This document shows, piece by piece, positions 42,225 to 64,000 of a DNA stretch of 64,000 bases. The DNA is taken from positions 26,001 through 90,000 of the forward strand of contig JBAMJV010003008.1 of assembly GCA_037951105.1 (NCBI GenBank), given 5' to 3'. Under the pieces are notes generated by a model. It ran no database searches and was not told the DNA's origin. It was given only the letters and a program-made list of their open reading frames with translations. The translations under genes were made by a program, and so were the position numbers. Source of the DNA: Echinarachnius parma (Eukaryota; Echinodermata; Echinoidea; Clypeasteroida; Echinarachniidae). Each line of letters starts with the position of its first letter. Position 1 is the stretch's first letter.

Positions 42225-42278
42225 ATGGAGAGCGGAAGGCGAGCTGGACTCTGTCTTCTGGTTTTTCTTATAGCCGGG
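42225..42278 (+). CDS. Exon 1, copy 1: signal peptide
   Basis: Kozak context CCACCATGG, 18 codons ([18 protein letters not shown]), then donor GTAAGG in phase 0. It joins in frame with exon 2 at 45099. It is the only copy directly behind a TATA-like box. Confidence 0.75.
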
Positions 42279-63200: not shown

Positions 63201-64000
63201 ATGTAATATAAACTGTAATTAGGTATATAATTATACAAACTATGACATATGGAATAGAGAGAAAGACAATAAAGAAAAGGAAAGGAAAGGGTGCAGGTGC
63301 ATATAATCATGGAAATAGAAATATCAAGGAGAGGAAGGATTCGAATGTCTTGATACAATCATGAGTGACTAACATTATGCAACTCCGTTCTTCATTTTCA
63401 CATTTTGACAGTTTGTATGTGATTTCCAGTCTGTTCTTGTTTTCTTTTTGACACAATCATATATGTTTATCAAATCTGCTCCATGCTTATACATGTATTA
63501 TTGGTAATATGAATACAACAAAGTTTGTGAGAATCGCTATAGAATTCTAAGTAAGTTTTGTCGATGTTGACATTGTTAATATATCACTTTAGAAGCAATG
63601 CTTTGTGCAAAGTTTCATGATAAGTGATATTCAAGTTACCACCCATCACACCCATGTAGAATACCAAACAAACTTTAAAAAAATACAAGAAAACGTACAG
63701 AACCAGGAACGGAAATCCGGCGGAAATGGGGCTACAATAGTTTTTAAACTAAAGGCAACAAGATTAATGTTTATTTTTTATTGTTAAAACCGGAAAGGGC
63801 GCTACCATAGAACAAAAAGCCAGCAAGAATAATTATTTGTGTTTTGTTCAAATTTAATTTGCAGGTCTATTTGCATTGCCACACCCACGTGTGCGACGCC
63901 CGAGACCCGGCCTCGCGGTGCGCGCTGGGCTGCCTATCCCGAGTTGGCCGTCGTAGTCGTAGAGATGCAGCCAGCGGCTCGATCTCGCTCGCCACATCGG
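42225..64000 (+). CDS. MNNL-DSL-EGF(~69)-ZP protein, Notch-ligand-like (3' incomplete)
   Basis: A gene model of ten exons: 42225-42278 (or 42423-42476, 42624-42677), 45099-45256, 46290-46416, 48731-48894 (or 48876), 49905-57827, 58386-58549, 59198-59373, 60699-61123, 62758-62857 and 63865-64000+. All joints keep the frame and have GT/AG borders. The product so far is ~3140 residues: signal peptide, MNNL and DSL domains as in Delta/Serrate ligands, ~69 EGF repeats (mostly calcium-binding DxxEC type with O-fucose sites), then a ZP domain with paired cysteines and the basic run RRSRR, typical of the ZP processing site. A membrane anchor would lie beyond the window. MNNL and DSL are known to contact Notch, and ZP domains polymerise. 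The combination is unusual. A role in Notch signalling or in extracellular matrix is inference. Confidence 0.85.
42423..42476 (+). CDS. Exon 1, copy 2: signal peptide
   Basis: 18 codons ([18 protein letters not shown]), start context CACCATGG, donor GTAAGG in phase 0. Interchangeable with copies 1 and 3. Confidence 0.6.
42624..42677 (+). CDS. Exon 1, copy 3: signal peptide
   Basis: 18 codons ([18 protein letters not shown]), start context CCACCATGG, donor GTAAGG in phase 0. Confidence 0.6.
43396..43612. repeat. Poly-G tract and ~43-base minisatellite
   Basis: A G tract at ~43396-43416 is followed by about four copies of a unit like CCAACTTCAAAACGGGGGTC with TAAGGAGCGGGGGTG. It interrupts the seventh exon-1 unit. 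Confidence 0.85.
44480..45040 (+). pseudogene. Decayed duplicate of exon 2, split by a MITE
   Basis: The left part (44480-44634) matches the exon 2 acceptor region and its first codons (ATGCGTCGGGCATGGGAACC). The right part (44986-45020) matches GACGATCAAGACTATAA of exon 2. The TTAA MITE at 44635-44985 sits between them. Changed codons and a missing middle make it non-functional. Confidence 0.75.
44635..44985. mobile_element. TTAA-flanked MITE (TTAAAGGGA family), copy d
   Basis: TTAA at 44635-44638 and 44982-44985; same orientation as copies a and b; inserted into the decayed exon 2 duplicate. Confidence 0.85.
45099..45256 (+). CDS. Exon 2: N-terminal half of MNNL domain
   Basis: 158 bases, acceptor TTTTAAAG, donor GTAAGT, phase 0 to phase 2. 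It encodes a segment with FVLDLQTY, then GDCC, then [15 protein letters not shown], matching the MNNL pattern of Jagged/Delta (FxLxI, NCC, CDxxFxVCL). Confidence 0.85.
45380..45795 (+). mobile_element. tRNA-headed SINE-like repeat with (ATT)n tail, in intron 2
   Basis: The head has GAGTTCAAACCC, close to a pol III B box, and the body ends in GGCGCTTCATAAATCGAACC followed by ATT repeats, like L2-mobilised SINEs. There is no coding content. Confidence 0.5.
46290..46416 (+). CDS. Exon 3: middle of MNNL domain
   Basis: 127 bases, acceptor TTCAACAG, donor GTAAGT. It ends in NATFTAWP, which aligns with the F-x-WP strand of MNNL domains. Confidence 0.85.
46462..46845. repeat. Inverted repeat in intron 3
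   Basis: 46462-46523 (GGATTGGTATAAAAGCC to CTACATACAACC) is inverted at 46776-46845 with moderate divergence; both contain the CGTAAGAGGGCG core. Probably an old foldback element. Confidence 0.6.
47056..47584. mobile_element. Mariner-like MITE (ACAGGGTGGC ends)
   Basis: Inverted ends ACAGGGTGGCCCAACAAAA and inverse, with TA at the borders. The arms (~230 bases) include GTGCACTTCCCAAAATAAAG. Ends of this kind are typical of Tc1/mariner elements. The 67-codon frame inside is not a gene. Confidence 0.75.
47688..47720. repeat. Perfect 16-bp hairpin in intron 3
   Basis: ACAGCACTAGCTTAGT, one T, then the exact inverse, followed by TTTT. No further structure was recognised. Confidence 0.8.
47741..47900. 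mobile_element. GGCCCCGTTGCAGAAA foldback MITE, copy 1
   Basis: Inverted ends around GGCCCCGTTGCAGAAA; the right end is degraded. A better copy lies at 61140-61314. Confidence 0.7.
48470..48560 (+). pseudogene. Decayed duplicate of exon 4 start
   Basis: TCCGCCCTCTATATAATCAAGG and GGACACCTTGGG with CGATGTCGACGATGTAGAC mirror the acceptor region and first ~40 bases of exon 4 at 48706-48775. The AG acceptor is kept as AAGG but the frame is short and ends early. Confidence 0.6.
48731..48894 (+). CDS. Exon 4: C-terminal part of MNNL and linker to DSL
   Basis: Acceptor CATAAAG. It encodes [13 protein letters not shown], aligning with the last MNNL strand, then a Ser/Thr-rich linker. Two donors fit the same phase: 48877 (GTCTAG) and 48895 (GTATAT), a difference of six codons. 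I list the longer form. Confidence 0.8.
49249..49799. mobile_element. TTAA-flanked MITE (CAGTTTTGGTA family), complete copy 1, intron 4
   Basis: TTAA at both ends, ends AGTTCAGTTTTGGTA and TACCAAAACTGTACTA. It ends ~105 bases before exon 5. A second complete copy lies inverted at 59736-60272. Confidence 0.85.
49905..57827 (+). CDS. Exon 5: DSL domain and 68 EGF repeats in one 7.9-kb exon
   Basis: It starts T-TTA-CAG after ATCAG and ends AA before GTGAGT. First comes a DSL domain with its six cysteines ([31 protein letters not shown]). Then follow EGF repeats of ~38 residues, nearly all with the calcium-binding DxxEC start and many with C-x4-(S/T)-C fucosylation sites. Repeat 20 carries an extra half-repeat at ~52351-52390. 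Repeat 17 has one extra residue. Repeat 67 has the longer fibrillin-like spacing ([10 protein letters not shown]). Repeat 68 is completed by exon 6. GC content is visibly above the surrounding introns. Confidence 0.95.
58386..58549 (+). CDS. Exon 6: end of EGF 68 and EGF 69
   Basis: Acceptor CACAG, donor GTAGGT, phase 2 to 1. It encodes [13 protein letters not shown], completing the split repeat, and one more EGF ([14 protein letters not shown] to FCEF). Confidence 0.9.
58780..59080. repeat. CACAGTGTGA-rich repeat in intron 6
   Basis: Many scattered copies of CACAGTGTG or ACAGTGCGT on both strands over ~300 bases. Likely a degenerate transposon; no gene. Confidence 0.55.
59198..59373 (+). 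CDS. Exon 7: ZP domain, N-terminal half
   Basis: Acceptor GATCAG, donor GTAGAC. It encodes [16 protein letters not shown], then DRACSGNP, then YDQCGTTM: three of the four ZP-N cysteines with the C-G-T strand typical of ZP domains. Confidence 0.85.
59736..60272. mobile_element. TTAA-flanked MITE (CAGTTTTGGTA family), complete copy 2, intron 7
   Basis: TTAA at 59736-59739 and 60269-60272; opposite orientation to 49249-49799; no coding capacity. Confidence 0.85.
60699..61123 (+). CDS. Exon 8: ZP domain, end of ZP-N, linker and start of ZP-C
   Basis: 425 bases, acceptor CATACAG, donor GTATGT. It starts [12 protein letters not shown] (ZP-N strand), has VPVQC (fourth ZP-N Cys), an acidic Asp-rich linker, and then [14 protein letters not shown] with LESCWIS, the ZP-C signature. 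Confidence 0.9.
61140..61314. mobile_element. GGCCCCGTTGCAGAAA foldback MITE, copy 2
   Basis: Clear inverted ends GGCCCCGTTGCAGAAAGAG; it begins 17 bases after the exon 8 donor. Confidence 0.85.
61468..62032. mobile_element. TTAA-flanked MITE (GGGCAATGAAACCCA ends), intron 8
   Basis: TTAA at both borders. The outer ends are inverted, and an inner inverted repeat contains GGCAACGCACTCTG and its inverse. No gene. Confidence 0.75.
62758..62857 (+). CDS. Exon 9: ZP-C
   Basis: 100 bases, acceptor TTTTAG, donor GTAAAT. It encodes [15 protein letters not shown] and GRFSVKTGY, a ZP-C segment. Confidence 0.85.
63865..64000 (+). CDS. Exon 10 (cut by window end): end of ZP domain and furin-like site
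   Basis: Acceptor AATTTGCAG. It encodes [10 protein letters not shown] and SRCALGC, the last ZP-C cysteines, followed by RVGRRSRRD, which fits a furin-type cleavage site. The frame runs on past the window. Confidence 0.85.

Follow-up and report, generated by a model that had tools for sequence, protein, structure and literature searches.

A predicted gene of Echinarachnius parma combines a Notch-ligand-type MNNL-DSL head with a long EGF array and a ZP module

Dumpy of Drosophila is a matrix protein in which a giant EGF array is combined with a ZP module, and in uromodulin and GP2 a few EGF repeats stand before the ZP module. To our knowledge, Dumpy carries neither MNNL nor DSL, and uromodulin and GP2 have no Notch-ligand head; likewise, we know of no ZP module in the Delta and Serrate/Jagged ligands of Notch. 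The EGF repeats number 5-9 in Delta and 16 in Jagged (PMC3415683), and a DSL domain together with a ZP domain has been described in mesoglein, an extracellular matrix protein of Aurelia aurita (PMC3504029, citing Matveev 2007). Proteins with EGF repeats and a ZP module have been reported from ascidian vitelline coats, nemertean eggs and mollusc shells (PMC11673550, PMC13361971). Here, a stretch of 64,000 nucleotides from E. parma (the window; bases 26001-90000 of contig C3007, in a 1.2-Gb assembly of 14790 pieces) was analysed, in which a predicted gene would encode an MNNL-DSL head, 69 EGF repeats and a ZP module in a single protein. The product probably serves to build matrix, with a head derived from Notch ligands and put to a new use, rather than as a working Notch ligand.

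The gene was modelled on the + strand from genomic sequence alone, with the splice sites placed by eye to hold the frame (Table 1). Ten exons extend from 42225 to the window edge at 64000 and are read through 3142 codons with zero stops; all nine introns are GT-AG with compatible phases, and the model is open at 64000, where the gene runs past the window end. Initial exon joins that broke the frame at exons 4 and 5 were dropped, and the acceptors listed for these two exons were picked as frame-keeping AG alternatives, which cured both. Beyond the signal-peptide-like segment of exon 1, no helix-like stretch was found in the 3142 amino acids up to the window end.

Pfam profiles were run on the spliced pieces, with the gathering scores as the pass mark. 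MNNL was matched at amino acids 27-142 (44.7 bits, cut-off 22.5), DSL at amino acids 177-217 (49.4 bits, cut-off 24.2), ZP-N at amino acids 2869-2964 (30.1 bits, cut-off 24.7) and Zona_pellucida/ZP-C at amino acids 2990-3116 (77.8 bits, cut-off 24.6), and the EGF profile was matched by 67 stretches in exon 5 and one in exon 6. When compared with solved structures (phmmer, PDB), the head matched Delta-like 1 (7e-22), fly Delta (3.1e-19) and Jagged-1 (5.6e-19), and the tail matched uromodulin (4.9e-9) and GP2 (1.3e-8); a weak phmmer match of the ZP region to TGF-beta receptor type 3 (E 0.012) was also obtained. The conserved cysteines of a ZP module are four in ZP-N and six in ZP-C, and the ZP region of the model has ten cysteines and aligns with uromodulin and GP2. 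Seven residues behind the tenth ZP cysteine stands RSRR, the only R-X-[KR]-R motif of the model, as part of a furin-like site that reads RRSRR in full (63949-63963). A first-pass annotation, made from the letters alone, had proposed ten exons joining in frame from 42225, the order MNNL-DSL-EGF-ZP, some 69 EGFs, and a polymerising kind of ZP module with a furin-like site, and the spliced model agrees on each of these: the introns and phases fit, the MNNL, DSL and ZP profiles all exceed their cut-offs in that order, the cysteine pattern gives a count of 69, and ZP-N, ZP-C, ten cysteines and a cleavage site just behind ZP-C are all present. Of its signal peptide, what stands is a hydrophobic, signal-peptide-like segment in exon 1.

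The same annotation had placed head and tail in one gene, and this was upheld by the exon structure and by a second genomic copy. The last EGF begun in exon 5 is finished only in exon 6; the frame of exon 6 is open from 58336 without a Met ahead of the EGF, and the frame of exon 7 opens only at 59194, four bases before the exon. On contig C5158, exons 2-9 are found again at 93.9-100% identity, with the same lengths, the same AG/GT borders, zero indels and zero stops (the comparison spans exons 2-9, with exons 1 and 10 outside it). The copies differ at 34 synonymous and 16 nonsynonymous sites (pN/pS 0.118, uncorrected), which are divided as 2 and 0 in the MNNL exons, 19 and 13 in exon 5, and 13 and 3 in exons 6-9. 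Judged by these differences, the EGF array and the tail are clearly constrained between the copies, and the MNNL exons, with two differences in all, offer too few to be judged alone; the C5158 copy may be either an allele or a recent duplicate. It is very improbable that two genes, one with DSL and EGFs and another behind it with ZP, were wrongly joined. Such an error would be in keeping with splice sites set by eye to hold the frame, and with six long-exon DSL relatives elsewhere in the genome, described below, in which a helix stretch lies behind the EGFs and ZP was not found; however, exon 5 breaks off within an EGF that exon 6 finishes, the frame of exon 6 lacks a Met ahead of the EGF and that of exon 7 opens just before the exon (spliced starts elsewhere were not searched), and the second copy has the same layout, likewise open and under constraint. 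The split EGF and this constrained copy led to the rejection of the two-gene model.

The EGF array is made up of 66 repeats with the strict cysteine pattern and three with an extra cysteine, plus one fragment, and the DSL domain and nearly all of these repeats lie within a single 7.9-kb exon. O-fucose and O-glucose sites are typical of Notch-type EGFs, and most of the 66 strict repeats have such consensus motifs, 48 of them for O-fucose and 52 for O-glucose. Among the 60 repeats of equal length (out of 69), pairs average 49-52% identity at each repeat distance between 1 and 20, and the best single pair reaches 71%; a recently expanded array was rejected on these values, by which the EGF repeats are old. 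The short-loop EGF1-2 of the DOS type stands behind the DSL domain in Serrate/Jagged, Delta and Dll1, but not in Dll4, and repeats 1 and 2 of the window gene have the ordinary EGF cysteine pattern rather than the DOS type (from the cysteine pattern and Pfam, with no DOS profile run). No match of the exon 5 repeats to the Pfam Delta/Jagged EGF families was obtained at E<=1, and one such match in exon 6 was far below its cut-off (10 of 27 bits). Along the array, net charge changes from -82 in strict repeats 1-10 (linkers counted) to -35 in repeats 41-50 and -15 in the last six, and methionines number 0 in the first ten strict repeats and 17 in the last six.

The genome was then searched for relatives. 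The DSL profile gave at least 24 matches on at least 18 contigs, a lower bound from 150 of 197 candidates scored, and the ZP-C profile gave at least 46 matches, among which the window's own was the weakest row (E 5.9e-5), so that weaker ZP exons elsewhere may be missed. C3007 and C5158, which carry the two copies of the window gene, were the only contigs with both DSL and ZP-C (two of the 18 DSL contigs among the matches listed), a uniqueness bounded by weak ZP exons that may have been missed and by an assembly in so many pieces. The MNNL profile gave four matches, a count that is no census, and missed the window's own because this MNNL is split over three exons. No relatives of the head were confirmed in bacterial genome contigs or viral contigs, which agrees with an animal origin of the gene.

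Eight further DSL matches are contained in reading frames longer than 900 amino acids, and six of these loci were read (two on C1875 and one each on C14500, C8923, C6454 and C4998, with C6560 left out), some of them possibly alleles. Each has the DSL domain and many EGFs in one exon, in frames of 921-1050 amino acids, and its DSL domain is followed by a GYED/GYDD linker containing a cysteine; all six have T and S at the places of Jagged-1 R203 and F207. These loci share with the window gene the one-exon DSL plus EGFs, the linker and the loss of R203 and F207, but behind their EGF exon the long-exon contigs have a conserved hydrophobic helix and charged tail, and ZP was not found: the window's ZP region, compared by phmmer with 1322 downstream reading frames of at least 25 amino acids, matched none of them. 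The part between the EGFs and the helix, joined by eye in one example, had no Pfam match at E<=10, and a possible MNNL in these relatives was indicated by weak tblastn matches at one locus, C4998 (E 0.021, 0.013). On our reading, the long-exon loci would form a side branch of membrane-anchored DSL proteins, of which the window gene would be a ZP-bearing relative. A further DSL group, with three matches on C293, has CLARDDSAGHYDC in the two that were read; the equivalents of R203 and D205 are kept there, and alanine stands at F207.

In Jagged-1, the Notch-binding face of the DSL domain consists of F199, R201, R203, D205 and F207 (PMC3415683), and the F207A change lowers Notch-1 binding to background with liposome binding like that of the wild type (PMC3888931). 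The face of the window gene reads F-Q-T-D-S; R201, R203 and F207 are changed to Q, T and S, and F199 and D205 are kept (two of five). The five solved ligands compared (Jagged-1, Jagged-2, DLL1, fly Delta and fly Serrate) all read F-R-R-D-F; DLL4 also matched but lay outside this comparison. Within the same genome, a Delta/Jagged-type gene on C1625 reads L-R-R-D-F, with the same DSL on C5465, and another on C2467 reads Q-T-R-D-Y, which keeps R203 and an aromatic residue at F207. In the phmmer alignment, an Asp is apparently kept at the place of the calcium-site residue D140 of Jagged-1, as numbered from that alignment. Given the altered Notch-binding face, the head most likely no longer functions as a canonical Notch ligand. 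Furthermore, the rule published in Gazave 2017 denies the names Delta and Jagged to DSL proteins that carry another conserved domain (the VWC of Jagged is exempt) and calls them 'DSL-like', a term that would apply to the window protein because of its ZP-N and ZP-C (PMC5356439). Of the earlier proposal of a Notch ligand, the MNNL and DSL domains stand, both above their cut-offs, but three of the five face residues are changed and the exon 5 EGFs gave no match to the Delta/Jagged families at E<=1.

Altogether, these data favour, with a probability of roughly 0.55, a secreted or membrane-tethered precursor that would be cleaved by furin and polymerised through its ZP module into a matrix protein, in which the EGFs would serve as long arms and the head would have taken on a new role. 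A furin-type protease would cut the precursor at RSRR, and the freed ZP modules would polymerise into filaments as in uromodulin. At a rise of about 2.8 nm per EGF, the array would form a long, calcium-stiffened arm that bears the head at its end and, at full extension, measures about 190 nm. The head may bind membranes through its C2-like MNNL, or another partner, and the protein may have a structural or adhesive role in an apical matrix or an egg coat. Binding of the tip to membranes or to some other partner is more probable than Notch signalling because the face is altered and the apparent calcium-site Asp is kept, and a repurposed head is further supported by the long-exon relatives, where R203 and F207 are absent in all six loci with a helix stretch conserved behind. 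Several points, however, weigh against a polymerised matrix protein with such a head. A furin consensus and a ZP fold are no proof of polymerisation, and any C-terminal hydrophobic patch, membrane helix or glycosylphosphatidylinositol (GPI) signal would lie beyond 64000, where the model is open. The C2467 gene, a likely canonical one, also keeps exactly two of the five face residues, and the face test is therefore suggestive rather than proof. The window gene retains F199 and D205, compared with none or one of the five residues in the six long-exon loci, and its DSL domain is identical to that of Jagged-1 at 20 of 40 positions and to those of the six loci at 21-23 of 40.

Other functions were weighed against the same evidence. 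A role in gamete recognition as part of the egg coat (vitelline coat), comparable to that of ascidian HrVC70/HrVC120, in which the head would form a tip that binds sperm or membranes, would fit the occurrence of EGF-ZP proteins in ascidian vitelline coats and nemertean eggs (PMC11673550) and the at least 46 ZP-C matches in the genome; it is nonetheless unlikely, as the purifying selection between the copies differs from the rapid change of recognition proteins and the even repeat identities at distances 1-20 give no sign of recent EGF turnover. It is likewise doubtful that a ZP filament anchors DSL heads in the extracellular matrix and that these heads activate Notch mechanically or sequester it. 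The MNNL and DSL scores, the retained F199 and D205 equivalents and the absence of nonsynonymous changes in the MNNL exons (where only two differences exist) agree with such a ligand or decoy, and anchorage fits the model in which Notch is activated by pulling; however, the R201, R203 and F207 equivalents are lost, the exon 5 EGFs do not match the Delta/Jagged families, and the same genome has separate Delta/Jagged-type genes. Decoy action or presentation of a Notch signal is possible for the window protein. The weak TGF-beta receptor type 3 match and the helix stretch of the related loci would suit a giant adhesive or sensory protein that is anchored in the membrane and has a non-polymerising ZP of the TGF-beta receptor III type, but ZP-N, ZP-C, ten cysteines and a cleavage site are arranged as in polymerising ZP proteins, which makes this highly improbable.

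More speculatively, the product might form a cell-free, ZP-polymerised brush whose Notch-ligand-derived heads, on arms of 69 EGFs, regulate either Notch, by activating it from an anchored position or by serving as a decoy, or a different receptor in the matrix; we regard this as rather doubtful, and if true, a signalling ligand would have been turned into a polymer. Under the favoured interpretation, the entire head of a Notch ligand (MNNL and DSL) would have been carried into ZP matrix polymers, in a genome with other long-exon DSL loci that are without the same Notch-binding residues. The window gene would then be a natural test of what such a head does without Notch binding, for example membrane binding by a C2-like domain, and of the exchange of parts between ligand and matrix genes.

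Table 1. Positions in the window of the exons and features of the predicted gene
Feature	Position	Strand	Evidence
Exon 1: start codon and signal-peptide-like hydrophobic stretch, 18 amino acids	42225..42278	+	Kyte-Doolittle mean 1.9 over amino acids 7-24
Exon 1, second intact copy (possible alternative first exon)	42423..42476	+	Tandem Repeats Finder (TRF) array
Exon 1, third intact copy (possible alternative first exon)	42624..42677	+	TRF array
Exon 2: first part of MNNL	45099..45256	+	Pfam; 100% identical in second genomic copy
Exon 3: middle of MNNL	46290..46416	+	Pfam; second genomic copy
Exon 4: last part of MNNL and linker	48731..48894	+	Pfam; second genomic copy
Exon 5: DSL and nearly all EGF repeats, 7.9 kb	49905..57827	+	Open reading frame, Pfam, cysteine pattern, second genomic copy
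DSL domain, amino acids 177-217	49930..50052	+	Pfam 49.4 bits; same location in genome-wide DSL search
EGF repeats, first to first half of second-last	50083..57827	+	Cysteine pattern
Exon 6: completes EGF started in exon 5, then last EGF	58386..58549	+	Pfam; second genomic copy
Exon 7: first part of ZP-N	59198..59373	+	Pfam; second genomic copy
Exon 8: last part of ZP-N and first part of ZP-C	60699..61123	+	Pfam; second genomic copy
Exon 9: ZP-C	62758..62857	+	Pfam; second genomic copy
Exon 10 (still open where the window ends): final part of ZP-C, including its last cysteines	63865..64000	+	Pfam, phmmer
RSRR, consensus furin cleavage site, amino acids 3127-3130	63952..63963	+	Motif scan of model

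The first exon lies in a decaying tandem array of the upstream, start-codon and signal-peptide segment (42152-44380, spacing mostly 182-205), of which TRF reported 42174-42804 with period 201 and 3.2 copies. Three copies of the 54-nucleotide exon are intact with GTAAGG donors, and alternative first exons are therefore possible. A 45-nucleotide piece of the start of exon 2 is duplicated at 44574 (91% identical), and a short tandem array (43437-43592, period 43, 3.6 copies) adjoins a poly-G run.

Elsewhere in the window, four intronless frames of the Toll-like-receptor type were seen (67-1773, 4118-6829, 17550-19259 and 27576-30257), by eye two of full length and two without the N-terminal part; in the one that was scanned, leucine-rich repeats were clear and TIR scored 19 bits, just under the cut-off of 21.3. 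Two similar elements of the long interspersed nuclear element (LINE) type with broken frames were recognised by eye (12642-15880 and 30825-34036), and one of their frames, when scanned, matched the reverse transcriptase PF00078 at 77.5 bits. A tRNA gene match (Rfam) lies at 36164-36235 (54.8 bits).

When the predicted protein is set beside known systems, the ZP modules of uromodulin and GP2 are its nearest solved relatives (phmmer), and HrVC70/HrVC120 and the EGFZP shell proteins of molluscs have far fewer EGFs than 69. These latter proteins resemble it in carrying EGFs with ZP, and an MNNL/DSL head goes unmentioned in their accessible descriptions (PMC11673550, PMC13361971). Delta/Delta-like and Serrate/Jagged share with it the signal peptide, MNNL, DSL and then EGF repeats, but have 5-9 or 16 EGFs instead of 69 (PMC3415683) and an intact rather than an altered DSL face. 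A description of MNNL-DSL-EGF-ZP was not found in listings of the open literature, with subscription papers and sequence databases outside the scope of the search, and for DSL with ZP the search yielded only mesoglein. The first-pass annotation did not recognise the architecture from named ligands; DSL with ZP is already published for Aurelia mesoglein (PMC3504029). Mesoglein is like the window gene in having DSL together with ZP in a matrix protein and unlike it in being short, with DSL at amino acids 43-84 directly before ZP at 93-337, and its accessible description makes no mention of MNNL or an EGF array (PMC3504029). We rate the MNNL-DSL-EGF-ZP combination as a variation on the published DSL-ZP and EGF-ZP proteins, in which the head is complete and the EGF array is unusually long for a DSL protein.

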